DNA from: Sideroxydans lithotrophicus ES-1
GTDB lineage: Bacteria > Pseudomonadota > Gammaproteobacteria > Burkholderiales > Gallionellaceae
Length of the DNA: 64,000 nt
Assembly: GCF_000025705.1 (NCBI RefSeq)
Contig: NC_013959.1
Location: forward strand, 248,001 to 312,000
Reading direction: 5' to 3'
Shown: piece by piece, positions 11,719 through 20,683 of the stretch
How positions within the stretch are numbered: the first letter of the stretch is position 1
Layout: each line of letters begins with the position of its first letter
Position numbers and translations under genes: made by a program
Notes under the pieces: model-generated
The model's input: only the letters and a program-made list of their open reading frames with translations
The model's database searches: none
What the model was told of the DNA's origin: nothing

Positions 11719-12750
11719 ATGCCGGAGACACGCAGTATAAATCAAAACATTGCGTCCAAGCTGTTGCCCGACTTCCGCAATCTGGGTACCGCGATGCGCA
11801 TCATCCTGCTGGCCAACGCCATCGCACTGCTCGGTGCCGCCTCGCAGGCCGTTTCGTTCGATGACTTGCAGGGCGGCCTGCTGCAAGGCTCGGCATTGCT
11901 GCAGCCGGTCCTGCTAAGCAGCTTGCTGATGTTGTATGCGCTCAATCCGGTATTGGCAAAACTGCCATACCGGCAGGGTGTGGCGGCTGTGGTGGCCGTA
12001 GTGGCCGTACTTACCTTGTTGATCGACTTGTCCGGCGGCGAACTGTTCGCCGCGTCCGGAGGCTATGGAGCGTTTCGCTACATGCGCCATGCATTCGTCG
12101 GCATCGCATTGTCGCTGCTGCTGCTGTCATACTTCCGCCTGCGCGCGCTGGCACTGTCGCCCGCAAAACAGGAAGCGCGCCTGCAAGCGCTGCAAGCGCG
12201 CATCCGCCCCCACTTCCTGTTCAACACCATCAACGCCGTATTGAGCATCGTGCGGGCCGACCCCAAGCGCGCAGAGAACGCACTGGAGGACATGGCTGAC
12301 CTGTTCCGCGTGGCGATGACCGAGCAGCACGAACTGGTTGCGTTGGGTAAAGAGGTCGAACTGGCCAGGCAATATCTGGCCATCGAAGAATTGCGTCTGG
12401 GCGAACGGCTCAAGGTGAGCTGGAATATCCGCAACATGCCGTCCGATGCGCTCATCCCGCCGCTGGTCCTGCAACCGCTGCTGGAGAATGCCGTCTATCA
12501 CGGGATCGAGCCGCTGCCGGAAGGCGGCACCATCGACGTCCGGCTGTACCTGGATGACAACGAATTGAATCTGGAAGTGAGCAACCCGGCGCCGGCCCAG
12601 GCCGTGCCGCACGCGAATGGCAACAAGATGGCACTCTCCAACATCCGCGAACGCTTAGCCCTGCTGTTCGATGTGGAAGCGCATTACCAGGTGGAACGCG
12701 ATGCGGACCGTTACAACGTACACATCCTCATTCCCTATGTGAAAGGGTAG
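11719..12750 (+). CDS. LytS/AlgZ-type sensor histidine kinase
   Basis: 343 aa. Four hydrophobic segments (about residues 27-135) are followed by a His_kinase domain with phosphoacceptor H165 in [12 protein letters not shown] and an ATPase domain ([20 protein letters not shown]). This is the AlgZ/FimS class, which phosphorylates LytTR regulators. The start has AAGG a few bases upstream. The cognate LytTR regulator begins 5 bp downstream, and an OmpR-type pair then follows, so the four regulators form one apparent operon ending just before the cyc2 cluster. Confidence 0.88.
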
Positions 12751-12755
12751 CCAGC

Positions 12756-13520
12756 ATGAACGACACAGTCACCCTGCCGCTCACTGTCTTCATCGTCGAT
12801 GACGAAGCGCCCGCGCGCAACCGCCTCAAGGAGCTGCTGGCCGATTGCGATGCACAGTTCCCCTTGCAGCTGGTGGGCGAAGCAGCCAACGGACGGGATG
12901 CGCTGGACAAGCTTGCCGAGACGCCTGCCGAAGTCGTGCTGATGGATATACGCATGCCGCAAATGGACGGCATCGAACTGGCGCGCCATCTGAACAAGCT
13001 CGATCACCCCCCGGTGATCATCTTCACCACCGCATATGACAGCTATGCCATCCAGGCATTCGAACAACGCGCCATCGATTACTTGCTCAAGCCGATCCGC
13101 CTGGGACGCCTGTTCGACGCCCTTTCCAGGGCGCGCGACATGGTGCCGATACGCACCGAAGTGCTGCGCGAACTCACGCCCGAACCGCGCAGCAACCTTT
13201 CTGCGCACGAGCGCGGCAAGGTGCTGCTCATCCCCATCGACCAGGTACTCTACCTGCGTGCCGAATTGAAATACGTTACAGTACGGACTTTGGAGCGGGA
13301 GTATCTCATCGAAGAATCGCTCACCGCGCTGGAAAAGGAGTACAGCGCACGCTTCGTGCGCATCCATCGCAACTGCCTGGTGGCAAAGAAGGCTATTGCA
13401 GGTTTTGAAAAGGGTGGTGAGGAAGGCGAAAGTGGCTGGTTGATGATCCTGGAAGGGCTGGATGAGCGGTTGCCGATCAGTCGTAGACAAATGAGTGTCG
13501 TTAAGGAATATGGGAAATAA
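12756..13520 (+). CDS. AlgR-like LytTR response regulator
   Basis: 254 aa. Receiver domain with FIVDDEAPARNRL and phosphoacceptor D64 (VLMDIRMPQMDG), KP motif in YLLKPIRLGRL, and a C-terminal LytTR DNA-binding domain (about 150-250; FVRIHRNCLV). It pairs with the kinase 5 bp upstream. Targets are unknown; in pseudomonads AlgR controls envelope functions. Only 3 bp separate it from the next regulator gene. Confidence 0.9.
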   Translation: MNDTVTLPLTVFIVDDEAPARNRLKELLADCDAQFPLQLVGEAANGRDALDKLAETPAEVVLMDIRMPQMDGIELARHLNKLDHPPVIIFTTAYDSYAIQAFEQRAIDYLLKPIRLGRLFDALSRARDMVPIRTEVLRELTPEPRSNLSAHERGKVLLIPIDQVLYLRAELKYVTVRTLEREYLIEESLTALEKEYSARFVRIHRNCLVAKKAIAGFEKGGEEGESGWLMILEGLDERLPISRRQMSVVKEYGK

Positions 13521-13523
13521 ACT

Positions 13524-14216
13524 ATGCGTGTACTGATCATTGAAGACAATCGAGACCTTGCTTCCAACATGTTCGATTTCCTGGAAGCCAAAGGACATGT
13601 CGTGGATGCGGCAGGGGATGGCATATCCGGCATGCATTTGGCGCTGGTCAATCAATATGATGCGATCGTGCTCGACCTGATGCTGCCGGGCATGGACGGC
13701 ATCACGCTGTGCCGCAAATTGCGGGAAGAGGGGGGCAAGGACACGCCGATCCTGATGATCACCGCGCGCGATTCGCTGGAAGACAAGATCGCCGGCCTGG
13801 AAGCGGGTGCGGACGACTACCTGGTCAAACCCGCCGAGTTGCGCGAAGTCGAGTTGCGCTTGCGCGTGCTGTTCCGGCGCGGCGGAGACCACACGCAGAA
13901 GCAGAAGAAGATGACCGTGGACGACCTCAGCATGGACCCGTTCACCTGTTCGGTGAAGCGCGGCAACAAGTCCATCGACCTGCCGCCGATCCCGTACAAG
14001 ATACTGGAGATACTGATGGCGCGTTCTCCCCAAGTGGTCAACCGCGAAGACATCGAGCATGTCGTGTGGGGCGAAGGACGCCCGGACAGCGATTCGCTGC
14101 GGGCGCATGTGCATCTGCTGCGGGAACTCATCGACAAGCCGTTCGAGCGCAAGCTGTTGCGCACCATGCGCGGATTCGGATACCAGCTGGTCAGCCCGGA
14201 TGTTCCGGACCAGTAG
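13524..14216 (+). CDS. OmpR-family response regulator, candidate cyc2 regulator
   Basis: 230 aa. Receiver domain with IIEDNRDLA and phosphoacceptor D51 (IVLDLMLPGMDG), KP in YLVKPAELRE, and a C-terminal winged helix (about 128-225; LLRTMRGFGYQL is the wing). The partner kinase overlaps its 3' end by 17 nt. OmpR-family dimers bind direct hexamer repeats with 11-bp spacing; just such arrays precede all three cyc2 genes, the first beginning 1.3 kb downstream. The regulatory link is inferred from this match and from position. Confidence 0.92.
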   Translation: MRVLIIEDNRDLASNMFDFLEAKGHVVDAAGDGISGMHLALVNQYDAIVLDLMLPGMDGITLCRKLREEGGKDTPILMITARDSLEDKIAGLEAGADDYLVKPAELREVELRLRVLFRRGGDHTQKQKKMTVDDLSMDPFTCSVKRGNKSIDLPPIPYKILEILMARSPQVVNREDIEHVVWGEGRPDSDSLRAHVHLLRELIDKPFERKLLRTMRGFGYQLVSPDVPDQ

Positions 14217-15450
14217 CCTGCGTTTCCGTGTCGCATATTTCTATGCGATTTTCGGGGCGGGGCTCAGCATCCTGCTTTCCATGGCGGTCTTCTTCTCGGT
14301 GCAGGAGATCGGGCACCGGCTCATGGACGACACCCTGCGCCTGGAGCTGGACGATCACATCATCGACGGCAAGTTCATACCGCCGAACACCATCGCCATC
14401 AAAGGATACGATCTTTCCGATGGCGAATCCGAAAACATTCCCCCCGAGGTGAAAGATCTGTCCCCGGGCAGTTTCAACACGACGGTCGGGCTCACCGACT
14501 ACCGGGCGCTGGTCGTCGACCGGCGGGGCAAACGTTACGTCATGCTGTTCGATACGGATAGCGAACATCTGCGCGAATCGAGATTCTTCGTGTTCGTGGT
14601 GTTCTTCAGCATATTCATGAGCGTCAGTTCGGCGGCGGGCGGCTTCTGGCTGGCCAGCCGCGTCACTTCATCGGTCACCCGTCTGGCCAGGCAGGTCAGC
14701 CGAGCCGAGCCGGGGGACACCGAGCTCTCCCTGATCAAGCTCACCAGCAACGACGAAGTGGGAGACCTGGCCCGCGCCTTCGATCGCTACTTGCGCCGCC
14801 TGCGCGAATTCGTCGAACGCGAGAATTTCTTCACTGCGGATGTGAGTCATGAATTGCGCACGCCGCTCGCCATCATGCTCGGCACGGTCGAGGTGCTGGA
14901 GCAGGATGGAACGCTGACTGCAAAACAGGCAGAGCGTGTCGCGCGCATCCGCCGCGCCGCGCAAGACATGATCGAGCTGACCTCGGCCTTGCTGCTGATG
15001 GCGCGCGAACACCGCAATACCGCGGATGAACAGCCGTGCAACGTGGCCGAAGTGACGCTGGCCTGCGTCGAAAAGCACCGCCACCTGATCGGTGACAGGC
15101 CGATCCGCATGGATGTGATATTGACCGCTCAGCCGAGCCTGGTCGTCGAGCGGCCCCTGCTTGAGATCGTGATCGGCAACCTGATCCGCAATGCCTTGTT
15201 CCACACCGAAGCGGGCGTCGTTTCGCTGAAGCTTGAAGACAAGCGGCTGGTCGTGCAGGACACCGGCGCCGGGATGCGGCCGGAAGAACTGGAGCGCGCG
15301 CTGGAACGCTATTACAAAGGTACATCGAGCGCGGGGGCCGGCGTCGGACTGTCGCTGGTCAAGCGCATCTGCGACCGCTACGGCTGGCGCATCTCCCTCG
15401 ACAGCAAGGAAGGGCAGGGCACTGCGGCGGAGATCGGTTTCTCGGCCTGA
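14200..15450 (+). CDS. HAMP-type sensor histidine kinase
   Basis: 416 aa from the ATG at 14200 (MFRTSSLRFRVAYFY), which overlaps the regulator stop by 17 nt; the frame is open further upstream but inside the regulator gene. TM1 (about 12-34), a periplasmic sensor of about 95 residues, TM2 (about 129-152), HAMP, H217 in ADVSHELRTPLAIM, N-box NLIRNALFHT and G-box VQDTGAGM. It probably responds to a periplasmic condition. No Fe-binding motif of the ExxE type is evident in the sensor domain by eye. It is the last gene before cyc2. Confidence 0.92.
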   Translation: MFRTSSLRFRVAYFYAIFGAGLSILLSMAVFFSVQEIGHRLMDDTLRLELDDHIIDGKFIPPNTIAIKGYDLSDGESENIPPEVKDLSPGSFNTTVGLTDYRALVVDRRGKRYVMLFDTDSEHLRESRFFVFVVFFSIFMSVSSAAGGFWLASRVTSSVTRLARQVSRAEPGDTELSLIKLTSNDEVGDLARAFDRYLRRLREFVERENFFTADVSHELRTPLAIMLGTVEVLEQDGTLTAKQAERVARIRRAAQDMIELTSALLLMAREHRNTADEQPCNVAEVTLACVEKHRHLIGDRPIRMDVILTAQPSLVVERPLLEIVIGNLIRNALFHTEAGVVSLKLEDKRLVVQDTGAGMRPEELERALERYYKGTSSAGAGVGLSLVKRICDRYGWRISLDSKEGQGTAAEIGFSA

Positions 15451-15513: not shown

Positions 15514-15568
15514 TTCACCCATCTTTTACGCTGCGTTAACGGTGTCTTTACGGGGCCGTTGCTAGTAT
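15514..15568 (+). promoter_or_regulatory. cyc2-1 promoter: four 11-bp-spaced repeats and extended -10
   Basis: Hexamers TTCACC (15514), TTTACG (15525), TTAACG (15536) and TTTACG (15547) start exactly 11 bp apart, followed by TTGCTAGTAT, an extended -10 with TAGTAT at 15563-15568. The same layout precedes the other two cyc2 genes. A TATAAT at 15465-15470 could be a second, upstream promoter. Confidence 0.7.
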
Positions 15569-15670
15569 TTGGCCATCCTGTGCAAGTAATTGGTTTTGAT
15601 CGCACATGGTGAAGTATCTGGCTCGGGGGGGGTCTGTTCCCTGAATTTAAATCTCTGGAGGAGAAACGCA

Positions 15671-16984
15671 ATGAAGAAAATCGTACTGTCTCTGGCAGGC
15701 GTGTTGGCAGCAACCGCATTCGCACCTGAAGCATCCGCACTTCCATTGTTCGCACGTCAAACCGGCATGGCATGTTCCGCATGTCACTTCCAACATTTCC
15801 CGATGCTGAACAGCTTCGGCCGCGCATTCAAGGCAGCCGGCTTCACCATGGTAGGCGCACAAGGCAAGATCGAGGGCGACAACCTGTCGATCCCTGACAC
15901 GCTGAACGCAGCCGTGTTGACCACCATGGGTTATGTGAAGACCAATAACAACGGAGCAAATGCTGCGGGCGTAACTGCTCAAACAGCAAACTCCACATTG
16001 AATACGCCCCAAGACGGCACGATCTATGTGCCGGGTACCAATGGCGAGTTCTCCCTGTTCCTCGGCGGCCGTACCAGCGATTTCTCCGGTGCGCTGGCTG
16101 AAGTCGGCTTGACACAATCTGGCGGTATCGGCGCCGGTCTGGCTTCTGCCAAGTTTCCGTTCATGGTGCCGGTGGGTGACATGCACATTGGTATCGTTCC
16201 GTTCACAACAGACGGTCAGGGCGCATCCTACGGCTTCGAATACCTGAACACCGGTGCCAACGCCGTGCATACCATGCTGTTCGCCGGCGGCGACGTCAAC
16301 GGTTCTATCGGGACAACGGTTTCTGCTCAGCAATACCTTGGTACTGCTACAGCTGCAACCGGTGCGGCCCTGGTTGCCAATAGCGACCTGGGCTTCATCA
16401 ACATCACCAAGTTCCATGGCGTTGGTACCAACAATCTGGGCTTTGCGAACGGTGGAAAGCTGGGTTCTACCTACATCCGCGTAGCTGGTACGTTCGACGT
16501 GGCTGGCTGGGATTCCGCTGTGGGCGTACAGAGCTGGAGCGGTGTTTCCAGCGACGTTACCGCATTGTTAGCGCAAGAAACCAAGGCAACGGCGATCGAC
16601 GGCCAGATGCAAGGCACGGTAGGCGAGATGCCATTGGGCGTGTATGCCAGCTATGCGACGGCACCTGTGGCCAGCACTGGTATGACTAACCTGTACAACG
16701 CAAATGTTGCTGCAGGCGCAACTGCACGTAAGGCAATCGTAGTTGCTGCAGAACTGGGCTTCATGCCGGAAGTGGCAACCGTTGGCGTCGCTTACCGCAG
16801 GGGTACTACTGGTGCGGGCAATGGTGTCGATGGCGACAATTCCATCCTGCTGTCGGCCAGCTACAAGATCCAGCAAAACCTGTTGTCGCAGATCGTCTAC
16901 ACCAAGCAATCCGGTTCCGCATGGAACGGCATTGTTGATGGTGGCGACAAGCAGCTCGCGATCAACCTGGCAGTGCTCTGGTAA
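15671..16984 (+). CDS. cyc2: Cyc2-type outer-membrane cytochrome-porin fusion, copy 1
   Basis: 437 aa. The signal peptide (cleavage likely after ASA, residue 23) is followed at once by a single c-type heme motif, C35-S-A-C38-H39, in ARQTGMACSACHFQHFP, then about 390 residues of alternating beta-strand pattern ending in LAVLW; a terminal aromatic residue is typical of outer-membrane barrels. This is the Cyc2 plan: a small cytochrome plugged into a porin, known as the Fe(II) oxidase of neutrophilic and acidophilic iron oxidizers. The start at 15671 has GGAGGAG 7 nt upstream; the upstream ATG at 15590 would destroy the signal peptide. Two paralogues follow. Confidence 0.9.
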   Translation: MKKIVLSLAGVLAATAFAPEASALPLFARQTGMACSACHFQHFPMLNSFGRAFKAAGFTMVGAQGKIEGDNLSIPDTLNAAVLTTMGYVKTNNNGANAAGVTAQTANSTLNTPQDGTIYVPGTNGEFSLFLGGRTSDFSGALAEVGLTQSGGIGAGLASAKFPFMVPVGDMHIGIVPFTTDGQGASYGFEYLNTGANAVHTMLFAGGDVNGSIGTTVSAQQYLGTATAATGAALVANSDLGFINITKFHGVGTNNLGFANGGKLGSTYIRVAGTFDVAGWDSAVGVQSWSGVSSDVTALLAQETKATAIDGQMQGTVGEMPLGVYASYATAPVASTGMTNLYNANVAAGATARKAIVVAAELGFMPEVATVGVAYRRGTTGAGNGVDGDNSILLSASYKIQQNLLSQIVYTKQSGSAWNGIVDGGDKQLAINLAVLW

Positions 16985-17208
16985 TAGATCACTCGTTCCG
17001 CTGCGCACGCAAGTGTGCAGCGGGTGAGGCAAGATCCGTTACCAAGGTTCAGGAATCACAGAAAACAAACCACAAAAACTACCAAGCCATGTGGTTGGGT
17101 CGTTGCTAGGTTCGTGATTCTCTGCAAGGCGGGGAGCTGCGGAGGGTCACACCAGAGGGGGCCAGCGCCAAGGCCCAGCACACGACGGCGAGTAGTGGCA
17201 ACATAATT
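16985..17208 (+). other. 3' region of cyc2-1 with long GNRA hairpin
   Basis: No gene is seen. CCGCTGCGCAC (16998-17008), loop GCAA, GTGTGCAGCGG (17013-17023) form a strong hairpin 13 nt after the stop codon without T-tract, perhaps protecting the mRNA 3' end. A lone TTGCTAGGTT (17103-17112) resembles the cyc2 -10 box but lacks the repeat array. Confidence 0.5.
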
Positions 17209-17236
17209 GGGGAGACTTCGGTCTCCCCTATTTTTT
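17209..17236 (+). terminator. Rho-independent terminator of cyc2-1
   Basis: GGGGAGAC (17209-17216), TTCG tetraloop, GTCTCCCC (17221-17228), then TATTTTTT. It is a very stable hairpin, unusually far (225 bp) from the stop codon. Confidence 0.92.
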
Positions 17237-17375
17237 GGCCTTTATTTTTGAATTCACCAAGCTTGGCGCTTGCGTCGAGCGCCTTTGCATCTGCCATCAA
17301 GGCGAAGATCCTGCAGCATCAAAACCCATGCGCTGCCTGCCTATCGGGCTATTCGAGCCCTGCGCATCGATGCTA

Positions 17376-17414
17376 TTAACGTATTAATGACGTATGAATA
17401 ACTAATTCTTGATT
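17376..17414 (+). promoter_or_regulatory. Second, weaker 11-bp repeat array upstream of cyc2-2
   Basis: TTAACG (17376), ATGACG (17387), ATAACT (17398) and TTGATT (17409) again start 11 bp apart, 62 bp upstream of the main array. It may be an accessory binding region for the same regulator. The hexamers are more degenerate, so this is less certain. Confidence 0.4.
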
Positions 17415-17437
17415 TTCAGTGTCTCGAAAACACCAAA

Positions 17438-17492
17438 TTAACGTGTTCTTGACGTTGTCTTGACTTTTGTTTGACAAAGCGATTGCTAGGAT
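17438..17492 (+). promoter_or_regulatory. cyc2-2 promoter: four 11-bp-spaced repeats and extended -10
   Basis: TTAACG (17438), TTGACG (17449), TTGACT (17460) and TTGACA (17471), each 11 bp apart, then TTGCTAGGAT (TAGGAT at 17487-17492). Spacing from the last hexamer to the -10 box is the same as in copy 1 (10 bp), too short for a standard -35, which fits activator-dependent initiation. Confidence 0.75.
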
Positions 17493-17588
17493 GCCCCTCC
17501 TACCGGATGCACTTTAGGGTTATACCCCATAGCGCAAGGGAGTCAGGTAGAGGTAAGCAGTTCATTATTTCATAAGAGGAGAAACGTA

Positions 17589-18908
17589 ATGAAGAAAATC
17601 GTTCTGTCCCTGGCAGGCGTTTTGGCAGCAGCCGCATTTGCACCAGAAGCATCTGCCGTTCCGGCATTTGCGCGTCAAACCGGTATGGCATGTTCCGCAT
17701 GTCACTACCAGCATTTTCCCTTGTTGAACGGTTTCGGCCGTTCGTTCAAGTCCGCGGCGTACTCGATGATGGGCGCACAGGGCAAGATCGAGGGCGAGAA
17801 CCTTTCCATTCCCGATGTGGTTAACTTCGGTGGCTTCACGACCACGTTTGTCCAATCCCAGTCCGCTGGCCAAACTGCCGGTGTGGGCAATGCTGTGGCA
17901 GTACCCAAGTGGGGCGTTCCGGGAACAGGCGGCGAACTGTCGCTGTTCCTCGGTGGACGCATCTCCGACTTCGCCGGCTTCCTGGGTGAAGCAGGTCTGG
18001 GCGGTGGCGGTGCGGCCAACACTGGCGGTATCGTCGGCGCCGCCAAGCTGGCCATGTTGTTCCCGGTGGGCGATGCCCGCGTGGGTACCGTGATCTACTC
18101 GAGCAATGGTCAAGGCGCTGCATACAGCTTCGAATTGCTGAATACCGGCGCAGCCAATACCCACAAGCTGATGGGCAACAACGGTCCGTCCAGCCAGCAC
18201 GTCAAGGCGACTTCGGCTTCCCAGTACTTCGGTACCAACACGGCTGCGACTGGTGTCAACGTGGTGGCGAACAGCACCATGGGCTTCATCAACGTCGGTG
18301 CCTACGAAATGGCAGGTAACAGCCTGGTTGGCGGTGCCAACAACCTGAACCTGACCTATATCCGCGCAGCAGCGACCATCGACTTGGCCGGCTGGGATGC
18401 AGGCTTCGGTATCCAGAACTTCGGCGGCAAGAGCTATGTGACCGGCGGTAACAACGTGGCTGCAGTTGCCGGTACGGCCAACGCACCGAAGGCAACCATC
18501 ATTGACGCACAGATGCAGGGTGATCTGGCCGAGATGCCGGTCGGCTTCTATGCTTCCTATGGTACGGCAGCTGCAGGTACCGCGACAGAAACCAACATCT
18601 TCAATCCGATGGCTCCCAACGGTGGTGCAGGCACCACTGCAGCAACTTCGTTCAACGTGGCGGCTGAGTTCGGCATCATCCCGCATGTGTCGACCATTCA
18701 GGTGGCGATGCGTTTGGCAAAGAACGGTGCGGCAGTCAACAACACCGACAATGCTTTGATGTTGGGTGTGACTTACGAGCTGGCGCAGAACGTGGCACTC
18801 AGCTTAACCCGCACGCAACAGTCGGGCAGTGCATGGAACACCGATGCCGCAGGCAACCAGGCTGTGGGCAAGACTGCCAACACACTGTTGCTGGAAGCGC
18901 TGTTCTAA
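17589..18908 (+). CDS. cyc2: Cyc2-type outer-membrane cytochrome-porin fusion, copy 2
   Basis: 439 aa. The first 60 residues are nearly identical to copy 1 (signal peptide, then C35-S-A-C38-H39 in TGMACSACHYQHFP), while the barrel region has diverged strongly; it ends LLLEALF. Starts at 17589 after AGAGGAG. It has its own promoter array and terminator, so the three copies can be expressed separately. Function as for copy 1: electrons from extracellular Fe(II) enter through the heme. A divergent barrel with a fixed heme plug suggests the copies differ in surface loops, pore or substrate form. Confidence 0.9.
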   Translation: MKKIVLSLAGVLAAAAFAPEASAVPAFARQTGMACSACHYQHFPLLNGFGRSFKSAAYSMMGAQGKIEGENLSIPDVVNFGGFTTTFVQSQSAGQTAGVGNAVAVPKWGVPGTGGELSLFLGGRISDFAGFLGEAGLGGGGAANTGGIVGAAKLAMLFPVGDARVGTVIYSSNGQGAAYSFELLNTGAANTHKLMGNNGPSSQHVKATSASQYFGTNTAATGVNVVANSTMGFINVGAYEMAGNSLVGGANNLNLTYIRAAATIDLAGWDAGFGIQNFGGKSYVTGGNNVAAVAGTANAPKATIIDAQMQGDLAEMPVGFYASYGTAAAGTATETNIFNPMAPNGGAGTTAATSFNVAAEFGIIPHVSTIQVAMRLAKNGAAVNNTDNALMLGVTYELAQNVALSLTRTQQSGSAWNTDAAGNQAVGKTANTLLLEALF

Positions 18909-19020
18909 TCACAGCGTTCAGGCTGAGACTGGTTGACGGCGGGCCATTTTCCAGGAAACGGGATGCACGGAAAATGGGCTGAGCTGAAAGCAGGATAAAG
19001 AAATCAAAAAGCTGCAAATT

Positions 19021-19047
19021 TGGGAGGCCTGGGCCTCCCATTTTTTT
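19021..19047 (+). terminator. Rho-independent terminator of cyc2-2
   Basis: TGGGAGGC (19021-19028), loop CTGG, GCCTCCCA (19033-19040), seven T. An imperfect inverted repeat (CCATTTTCC near 18944 / GGAAAATGG at 18969) lies between it and the stop codon. The rest of the gap from 18909 to 19189 holds no gene I can support. Confidence 0.92.
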
Positions 19048-19189
19048 CGCAAAACAAAAATGTTGCACAAAAGATACAGCATGCTTATGTCGGCAACATC
19101 ATCAGCAGTGATTCATACAGAAATAAAAGCAAATAGAATCATCATTCTGAGCAGCATAAATGCGATTCCGCAAAAGGCAAACAGGAGTA

Positions 19190-19252
19190 TTAACCCTTAA
19201 TTGACGCTTTCTTTACTCTTTCTTGACATTGGAAAGGCGCCATTGTTAGGAT
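19190..19252 (+). promoter_or_regulatory. cyc2-3 promoter: four 11-bp-spaced repeats and extended -10
   Basis: TTAACC (19190), TTGACG (19201), TTTACT (19212) and TTGACA (19223), 11 bp apart, then TTGTTAGGAT (TAGGAT at 19247-19252). Here the last TTGACA lies 18 bp from the -10 box and can itself serve as a -35, unlike copies 1 and 2, so this promoter may have a higher basal level. Confidence 0.72.
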
Positions 19253-19345: not shown

Positions 19346-20683
19346 ATGAAGAAAATCGTACTGTCGATGACAGGCGTACTAGCAGCAGTTGCATTTGCAC
19401 CAGAAGCATCCGCATTACCGGCATTCGCCAGGCAAACAGGCATGGCATGTAACGCTTGCCATGCACAACACTTTCCCGTTCTGAATGGCTTCGGTCGCTC
19501 GTTCAAGGCGTCCGGCTACACCATGATGGGTGCGCAGGGCAAGGTCGAGGGCGAGAATCTGTCGCTACCCGACACATTGAACGGCGCTGTGCTGTTGAAA
19601 TATCGTTACCAGAAGGACAACACAACCGGAGTTGCGGGCGCAGGCGTGACTGCACCGACCACAAACTCGAACGGTATGTGGCAGATGGGCGATGAATTCA
19701 GCCTGTTCTTCGGCGGTCGCATCGCCGAGGCAGAAAATCTCAGGATCGGTTTCCTGATGGAAAACAATGTGGCCAACGTGGGCGGTGCCGGCAACCTGGT
19801 TGCAGGTCTGCGCGTGCCTATCGTCTACGATGCGGGTCCTGTGAAGATCTCCGCGATCCCGTTCACCACCGACACATTGGGCGTGACTTACAGCTTCGAA
19901 TTGTCCAGTGGCGGATTGGCCCGCGCGAACCGCTGGTCGGAACATCGTCGTGAAACCTCCGCTGTGCAATACAACGCAGATCAGGGCGGCGGATCGGCCA
20001 TTCTGGGTGGTGCCGGAGTTGGTGCGGCTGCTTCCGGATACGGTGCCGGTGCCGCTTCAGGCCACGCATTCGTGGTGCAGCATGAGTTGTTCTTCGTGAA
20101 CTACAGCTTGTGGTCGTCTTCGTTCGCACCCGGTGCGAACGGTGGTGCAGTAGGTTCCACCAACTATGGTCAGCGTTACATCCGTGTTGCGGCAACACCG
20201 AGCTTCGCCGGGTTCGACTTCGTGGCTGGTGCAGGCAAGGAGAGCGGCACTTCCTACGGCAATCTGGCTGGCGCGCAAGTCGAGGCCAACCAGACATTCG
20301 TTGACGTGCAGGCACAAGGCGAGATCGCAGGTCTGGAAACCGGCTTCTGGTTCCAGAATGCCAATGCGCCAGTATGCGGTGCAGCTATCCTGGCAGCAAA
20401 CTGCGTGCATAACACAGGCCTGTTCACCCGCAAAGCAACGACGCTGGGCGCAGAAGTGGGCGTGATCCCGCATGCTTTGTCGGTTGGCCTGGCATATCGC
20501 AAGGCGGATAACGGCGGTGCTCGCGGTACAGAAGGCGACAATGCCATCAACGTGTCTGCCGTGTATGAGCTGTTCCAGAACGTAGGCCTGCATGCAGACT
20601 ACGCGAAGTACAGCGGCAGTGCGCACACCGGTGTGAATGCACTGACCAATCAGTACACGCTGATGCTGGAAGCAGCCTGGTAA
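19346..20683 (+). CDS. cyc2: Cyc2-type outer-membrane cytochrome-porin fusion, copy 3
   Basis: 445 aa. Same plan: signal peptide ending ASA, C35-N-A-C38-H39 in TGMACNACHAQHFP, long beta-rich body ending LMLEAAW. It differs from copies 1 and 2 at two positions around the heme (N36; A40 in place of F/Y), which could alter redox potential. SD GGGGAG precedes the start. An additional cysteine pair in the barrel (VCGAAILAANC) is absent from the other copies and may form a disulphide in an exposed loop. Confidence 0.9.
   Translation: MKKIVLSMTGVLAAVAFAPEASALPAFARQTGMACNACHAQHFPVLNGFGRSFKASGYTMMGAQGKVEGENLSLPDTLNGAVLLKYRYQKDNTTGVAGAGVTAPTTNSNGMWQMGDEFSLFFGGRIAEAENLRIGFLMENNVANVGGAGNLVAGLRVPIVYDAGPVKISAIPFTTDTLGVTYSFELSSGGLARANRWSEHRRETSAVQYNADQGGGSAILGGAGVGAAASGYGAGAASGHAFVVQHELFFVNYSLWSSSFAPGANGGAVGSTNYGQRYIRVAATPSFAGFDFVAGAGKESGTSYGNLAGAQVEANQTFVDVQAQGEIAGLETGFWFQNANAPVCGAAILAANCVHNTGLFTRKATTLGAEVGVIPHALSVGLAYRKADNGGARGTEGDNAINVSAVYELFQNVGLHADYAKYSGSAHTGVNALTNQYTLMLEAAW

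Follow-up and report, generated by a model that had tools for sequence, protein, structure and literature searches.

Within a 64,000-nucleotide (nt) stretch of the Sideroxydans lithotrophicus ES-1 genome (NC_013959.1, positions 248,001 to 312,000; hereafter the window), each of three adjacent cyc2 genes of iron oxidation is preceded by an array of four TTnACg hexamers spaced 11 bp apart. We propose, with a probability of roughly 0.8, that these arrays serve as operators for an OmpR-family response regulator whose gene lies at window positions 13524-14216, activator sites of the PhoB/BqsR kind that would define a Cyc2 regulon. Since related genomes carry arrays when they carry this regulator, sequence comparison points to it as very likely a switch for iron oxidation.

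The pattern (TTNAC-N6)x3-TTNAC is found three times on the two strands of the window, at 15514, 17438 and 19190, and not once in 100 dinucleotide shuffles of it; runs of at least three TTNAC at periods of 8, 9, 10, 12, 13 or 14 occur on neither strand of the 64 kb. A position weight matrix (PWM) of the array alone, trained on 26 promoters of which two come from the window, scores arrays 1, 2 and 3 at 32.9, 34.6 and 31.6. Shifted copies overlapping the arrays being left out, the next-best place is 17376 (14.6), beyond which no position in the window exceeds 0.1 on either strand. This place is a degenerate second array at cyc2_2, 62 bp upstream of array 2, with the hexamers TTAACG, ATGACG, ATAACT and TTGATT at 17376, 17387, 17398 and 17409; its score was matched in 3 of 3000 shuffles of its intergenic region. 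The preliminary description of this DNA had placed twelve hexamers in 11-bp steps and judged them hard to explain by chance. All of its coordinates proved exact, and an origin in chance or AT-rich repetition can be considered already refuted by the shuffles, the empty control periods and the conservation of the arrays in relatives. It should be noted that the three ES-1 promoters are tandem paralogues and hence not independent draws.

An extended -10 element follows each array, as had been described, but its spacing is not uniform: hexamer 4 lies 10 nt from the -10 hexamer at cyc2_1 and cyc2_2, and 18 nt from it at cyc2_3. No -35 element at normal distance was seen by eye at the first two genes. 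At cyc2_3 the array is set 8 bp further upstream and hexamer 4 (TTGACA) itself occupies the position expected for the -35; promoter 3 is therefore not equivalent to promoters 1 and 2 and should respond differently. The spacing of about 10 nt that is typical of class II activation recurs in 29 of 32 examined arrays. An 18-nt spacer is found at two, array 3 and its counterpart at the third cyc2 of one relative (L100:8795; L and G numbers are our labels for loci and genomes), and no -10 spacer was found at the last (L112:722). Further conserved blocks accompany the cyc2 arrays, namely TGTTG[CT]A at -18 or -19 from the array (19/29) and, by a looser pattern, a CTTGTG-like block about 10 nt after the -10 (22/29). 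Neither is present at ES-1 arrays 2 or 3; the TGTTGCA block is also found upstream of the array at one cytochrome gene (L172).

The arrays are linked to the regulator by their joint distribution. The same set of 150 Gallionellaceae genomes was searched for the array, the regulator, the neighbouring LytTR protein and PhoB. The array was represented by R1, a sequence-only profile of 55 nt from 26 promoters, searched with stricter filters. Genomes with a regulator of at least 75% identity were counted as regulator-positive (27/150); the 123 others include 13 that hold only a distant regulator group. At an expectation value (E) of at most 1e-4, R1 matched 27/27 regulator-positive genomes versus 1/123 others (G109, 73% complete), and at E≤1e-3 again all 27 versus 4/123. 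Inside the genus, the figures at E≤1e-4 are 23/23 versus 1/11. For the co-occurrence as a whole, Fisher's test gives p = 6e-29 with shared ancestry ignored. The five regulator-positive genomes that gave no row to R1 (G003, G053, G087, G101 and G113) were all matched, at E≤6.2e-5. Each of the 24 positive genomes in which cyc2 was found has a match just upstream of a cyc2 gene; by comparison of coordinates, none of the 86 other cyc2-carrying genomes has a match at E≤1e-4.

This distribution bears on whether another protein reads the arrays and the OmpR-type gene is a bystander. PhoB would be a candidate, as PhoB-family proteins recognise direct repeats of 11-nt units (PMC4415409), and so would the LytTR protein, whose gene adjoins the locus. 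PhoB is, however, present in 144/150 genomes and the LytTR protein in 132/150. Of the 122 genomes that lack an R1 match at E≤1e-4, PhoB is found in 119 (E≤1e-90) and LytTR in 105 (E≤1e-50), so that an array cannot be predicted from the presence of one or the other. Only the OmpR-type gene follows the arrays. One genome (G057, 99% complete) has an array and no PhoB match at E≤1e-90, and many array loci have no adjacent LytTR gene. Both proteins were rejected as array binders on these grounds, and a reader other than the OmpR-type regulator seems quite unlikely.

A scan of named genomes covered 77 cyc2-like genes, 74 in 65 loci plus the three of ES-1. With at most two mismatches in 16 core bases, arrays precede nine genes in eight loci as well as the three ES-1 genes; none was found among the 77 at control periods or on the opposite strand. 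Close regulator orthologues (phmmer, at least 379 bits) are present in eight named loci, seven of which have an array, and at the eighth (L008) a degenerate array is recognisable by eye, with a profile E of 2.6e-6 in genome G003. The only array locus without the regulator (L031) is a 7.7-kb contig, and the matching genome (G087) carries the regulator on another contig. In the DNA covered for the other 56 named loci there is no close orthologue and no array; many of their flanks are short, and some (e.g. Ralstonia) are doubtful as Cyc2. Several named loci (L004, L005, L008, L019, L026, L030, L031, L043 and L048) belong, as their promoter letters for example indicate, to the same genomes as in the family set, and are not independent of it. 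The search for TTnACG-N5 repeats upstream of cyc2 in relatives, proposed in the preliminary description, did find arrays, both in eight of the named loci and in every regulator-positive genome where cyc2 was found. The statement that they stand before every cyc2 holds for ES-1 and not for all cyc2 genes of its relatives.

The regulon is likely to be wider than had been supposed, including two cytochrome c genes, a small secreted protein and a structured RNA. Six R1 matches lie below E 0.1 in ES-1: the three cyc2 genes, two monoheme cytochrome c genes and the gene of a small secreted protein, which matched no Pfam family. All three extra sites keep the 10-nt spacing to a TAGnAT -10. The cytochrome with an array-like site recurs in G054, G066, G078, G101, G107 and G113, and homologues of the small protein (60-65% identical) stand behind like sites in G066, G078 and G113. 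When 30 cytochrome loci (the best one per genome) were scored with the PWM, six of the seven from regulator-positive genomes reached 28-41, and none of the 23 from regulator-negative genomes exceeded 7.8. The remaining positive genomes have only weaker cytochrome homologues and no profile match there, and the cytochrome part of the regulon is therefore seen in an ES-1-like subset. ES-1 itself has six paralogues of the monoheme cytochrome. The two genes behind the array-like sites are probably Slit_2042 and Slit_1353, as mapped by gene-order interpolation only; published work has put both forward as candidates for periplasmic carriers that respond to Fe(II) (PMC8788666), and both stand at or above the 95th percentile in every proteome column of a second study (PMC12016527). 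Two weaker ES-1 matches (L174 and L175; E 0.10 and 0.16) are oddly oriented or placed and are not counted as targets, and another (L176; E 0.3), preceding a third cytochrome paralogue at non-standard spacing, is only suggestive of a further target.

These additional sites also argue against simple hitchhiking, in which regulator, array and cyc2 would have been copied together and would track one another through linkage and ancestry alone. Most arrays do lie directly after the kinase gene, and 23 of the 27 positive genomes belong to one genus. Array-like sites nevertheless also precede genes unlinked to the locus, those of cytochrome c, the small protein and the RNA, and because the cytochrome targets are unlinked to the cyc2 locus, physical linkage alone is no explanation. 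Moreover, core positions are conserved (mean 1.89 bits) relative to linkers (0.47 bits), a figure that is biased since the rows had been selected for having the array. Taken together, hitchhiking appears very improbable.

The structured RNA of ES-1 lies in the 3' untranslated region of cyc2_1 and is closed by the helix ACUAC-CAA-GCC / GGC-GA-GUAGU. Its minimum free energy is -58 compared with -45.3 for shuffled sequences, none of 200 shuffles being as good. With a covariance model built from eight sequences, two-sided changes were counted in 14 of 28 pairs versus a mean of 6.5 in shuffles, in an alignment fitted to that model. The RNA is present in 13 of the 150 family genomes, all of one genus and 12 of them regulator-positive; five of the 13 gave no row to the covariance model, one of these (G109) being identical to a row that was used. 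In five genomes (G000, G024, G066, G078 and G107) it stands behind an array-driven cyc2, and in eight others it has an array promoter of its own. Such promoters precede the RNA, with no recognised gene, at L211, L212, L213, L214, L215, L105:9980 and L110:9540, and are placed downstream of the LytTR gene or the cyc2 locus, near ppc; L211, L213, L214 and L215 have a terminator nearly identical to that of ES-1. Rfam gave no match for the RNA at the gathering score, and three sub-threshold matches near it.

We envisage that the adjacent membrane kinase phosphorylates and so activates the regulator, which would then bind head to tail on the four TTnACg half-sites at 11-bp steps. Each array probably takes up two dimers, an arrangement in keeping with the number of half-sites and with known relatives. 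In the promoters of cyc2_1 and cyc2_2, half-site 4, 10 nt from the extended -10, would replace the -35, and direct recruitment of sigma70 RNA polymerase by the bound regulator would follow, in the manner of PhoB-like class II activation. The less perfect operators at the two cytochrome c genes and the small secreted protein gene, together with the RNA of relatives, would belong to one and the same Cyc2 iron-oxidation regulon.

We infer activation and not repression by the regulator. As repressor sites, the arrays would let bound regulator block RNA polymerase, with a silent kinase derepressing cyc2; hexamer 4 of cyc2_3 coincides with a TTGACA that resembles a -35 and is followed by an 18-nt spacer, and cyc2_1 is high under all of the published conditions (PMC8788666), both of which would suit such a scheme. 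A last half-site exactly 10 nt from the -10, as in 29 of the 32 arrays, is by contrast activator geometry, and to the eye cyc2_1 and cyc2_2 have no -35 at normal distance. Promoters of this kind are generally weak unless activated. Repression is thus unlikely.

The periplasmic domain of the kinase is conserved, and is predicted to form a small alpha/beta domain between two long helices (predicted local distance difference test, pLDDT, 78). A fold search with this domain returned no PDB match below E 0.001; some of the weak ones are PAS or CACHE domains. In an alignment inspected by eye, 21 of 25 close kinases have E-x-x-[ED] in the first part of the domain, the exact ExxE being present in 11 of the 25, and ES-1 has ELDD instead. 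Such a stretch is reminiscent of Fe-sensing kinases, but since E-x-x-[ED] is also found in a group that does not serve cyc2, iron as the signal of the kinase is only a guess.

Of the systems compared, BqsR/BqsS (CarRS) from Pseudomonas aeruginosa comes nearest, a two-component activator with TTAAG-N6-TTAAG sites of 11-bp period (PMC4682146), likened here by operator layout. One BqsR promoter has four pentamers, the last overlapping the -35, of which pair 3+4 is critical and pair 1+2 additive (PMC4682146). The system is linked to Fe(II): its kinase binds Fe2+, and Glu48 of the ExxE motif is essential (PMC12666569). The half-sites differ, TTAAG versus TTnAC[GA] here, and the BqsR-type half-site was not found; hexamer frequencies are those of model A2, which holds 26 promoters and leaves out, of the 32 arrays, ES-1 array 3, L100:8795, L101:5001, L105:9980, L110:9540 and L112:722. 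The targets differ as well, being here the iron-oxidation pathway. Operators of Bacillus subtilis PhoP consist of TTAACA-like repeats of about 11-bp period, often four, but this regulator belongs to another phylum and has other targets and another signal than that of ES-1. RegB/RegA of Acidithiobacillus ferrooxidans reportedly exerts two-component control over iron-oxidation genes in an acidophile; it is a different regulator by name. At pstS, PhoB occupies a tandem pair of pho boxes at 10 nt from the -10. PhoB binds its 11-nt direct repeat units head to tail and interacts with sigma70 (PMC4415409). The direct repeats of 11-nt units are the point of likeness, whereas the PhoB half-site is CTGTCAT and ES-1 has a separate PhoB.

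The regulator scores above the cut-off for both of its Pfam domains (PF00072, 94.9 bits; PF00486, 58.3 bits), and below it for the PhoB model TIGR02154 (150.3 versus 296.2 bits) and the CztR/SilR/CopR model TIGR01387 (187.9 versus 279.2 bits), the latter still being its best NCBIfam score. Its recognition helix, PDSD[SA]LRAH, is nearly invariant and nearly identical in close and distant regulator groups. The distant group is a second set of regulator-kinase pairs (49-61% identity) in which related arrays lie close to where the kinase gene ends; the array scan (at most two mismatches) flags 8 of its 13 loci (L126-L138). The genes behind these arrays are not cyc2. Of the two checked against Pfam, one encodes a member of the sulfate-permease family and the other a lipoprotein-like member of the OmpA family. 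Two genomes from other families carry a homologous kinase gene whose end is 8 and 47 bp upstream of an array of four hexamers with the 10-nt spacing, followed by a gene of the thermostable-hemolysin family (PF12261 in the one checked). A profile scan at the level of the class matched 5 of 368 genomes outside ES-1 at E≤1e-3: two with a kinase homologue adjoining the array, two (G350 and G220) with the same kind of downstream gene and no kinase in the 3 kb examined, and G299, which is unexplained. Given the similar arrays in the distant group and the shared helix, the array looks like a mark of a regulator subfamily, which Gallionellaceae would apply to cyc2.

Homologues of the regulator were also encountered in other settings. 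Orphan second copies (L113, L116 and L118) are about 80% identical and have no adjoining kinase; those in G066 and G078 have a cytochrome c gene no more than about 6 kb away. The P. aeruginosa plasmid CP137941 (L261) carries a regulator-kinase pair of 50% identity with array-like sites on both sides, preceding LTA-synthase-like and methyltransferase genes, the second site with a poor fourth hexamer. No array was found beside a homologue on a Xanthomonas plasmid.

Several observations weigh against assigning the arrays to this regulator as the operator of one coherent regulon. The co-occurrence count is uncorrected for shared ancestry, regulator and array usually share a single locus, which may be transferred as a whole, and R1 itself contains rows from 22 of the 27 positive genomes. 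G113 is positive solely via an orphan copy without a kinase (L118), and at least 10 regulator-positive genomes have further cyc2 genes without an R1 match upstream. The extra ES-1 sites are weaker, with two and three exact TTNAC hexamers of four at the cytochrome genes and two at the small-protein gene; cytochrome arrays were seen in seven genomes, and G003 has the regulator and a cytochrome without an array. The array scan left 5 of the 13 distant-group loci unflagged. No array precedes the LytS operon (best score -28), and autoregulation was rejected. In the published data, cyc2_1 is high also on thiosulfate and lower in long-term Fe(II)-citrate, and expression of cyc2_2 and cyc2_3 rises on Fe(II) (PMC8788666), so that the three genes together do not fit one simple Fe(II) switch. 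The 18-nt spacer, the second cyc2_2 array and the upstream element are candidate causes of these differences. The earlier proposal that one regulator controls all three genes therefore stands in part: the identity of the array reader is well supported by co-occurrence across the 150 genomes, but control of the three as one unit is doubtful in view of the geometry of promoter 3, the extra cyc2_2 array and the differing published expression.

A search of the ES-1 genome (one contig, 3,003,656 bp) with cyc2_2 returned three cyc2 genes, and Pfam and NCBIfam searches matched no family in any of the three Cyc2 proteins. They are named Cyc2 because the published gene order matches, together with the haem-motif sequence. 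The intergenic gaps between them in the window are 604 and 437 bp; the published ES-1 locus has three adjacent cyc2 genes with gaps of 604 and 437 bp, 'preceded by transcriptional regulators' (PMC8788666). The features are listed in Table 1.

Table 1. Features of the cyc2 locus in window coordinates, followed by three putative target genes elsewhere in ES-1
Feature	Position	Strand	Basis
LytS-type histidine kinase, neighbour	11719..12750	+	domain search
LytTR response regulator, neighbour; rejected as array binder	12756..13520	+	domain search, distribution
OmpR/PhoB-family response regulator, proposed array-binding activator	13524..14216	+	Response_reg + Trans_reg_C, co-occurrence with arrays
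Partner membrane histidine kinase (HAMP, HisKA, HATPase_c), ~90-aa periplasmic domain	14200..15450	+	domain search
Conserved upstream element TGTTGCAATAAACACAA	15496..15512	+	starts 18 bp before array 1
Array 1 (cyc2_1): TTCACC, TTTACG, TTAACG, TTTACG, 11-bp steps	15514..15552	+	pattern scan + PWM
Extended -10 TTGCTAGTAT at cyc2_1	15559..15568	+	10 nt from hexamer 4 to TAGTAT
cyc2_1 (Slit_0263 by published gene order)	15671..16984	+	gene order, haem-motif sequence
Structured RNA, cyc2_1 3' untranslated region, ~125 nt	17077..17201	+	folding, covariation
Intrinsic terminator GGGGAGACTTCGGTCTCCCC-T after structured RNA	17207..17236	+	sequence
Degenerate second array at cyc2_2	17376..17414	+	PWM score 14.6
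Array 2 (cyc2_2): TTAACG, TTGACG, TTGACT, TTGACA, 11-bp steps	17438..17476	+	pattern scan + PWM
Extended -10 TTGCTAGGAT at cyc2_2	17483..17492	+	10-nt spacer
cyc2_2 (Slit_0264)	17589..18908	+	gene order, haem-motif sequence
Array 3 (cyc2_3): TTAACC, TTGACG, TTTACT, TTGACA, 11-bp steps	19190..19228	+	pattern scan + PWM
Extended -10 TTGTTAGGAT at cyc2_3	19243..19252	+	18-nt spacer from hexamer 4
cyc2_3 (Slit_0265)	19346..20683	+	gene order, haem-motif sequence
Monoheme cytochrome c gene with array-like site	2,059,972-2,060,346	+	R1 profile; Pfam Cytochrom_C
Monoheme cytochrome c gene with array-like site	1,345,917-1,346,291	-	R1 profile
86-aa secreted, cysteine-containing protein	L171:1659-1919		behind two-hexamer site; R1 profile

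No regulator of cyc2 in a neutrophilic iron oxidiser was found named in those parts of the ES-1 and Gallionellaceae literature that were searched. We give even odds to a dedicated neutrophilic iron-oxidation regulon, in which Fe(II), or a periplasmic signal related to it, would be sensed by a single two-component system that switches on Cyc2 and its periplasmic electron carriers, along with a small secreted protein and structured RNAs of a new family. Now that a regulator and an operator can be named, one purified protein would suffice to test the control of cyc2. Two periplasmic monoheme cytochromes are singled out by the operator independently; if the locus tags hold, they are the carriers proposed from transcriptomics, and in that case the shared operator would link them to Cyc2 at the level of regulation. 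The operator further leads to two products of no assigned role, the small secreted protein and the structured RNA, and, if the regulon is real, could be used to find hidden parts of the iron-oxidation pathway.

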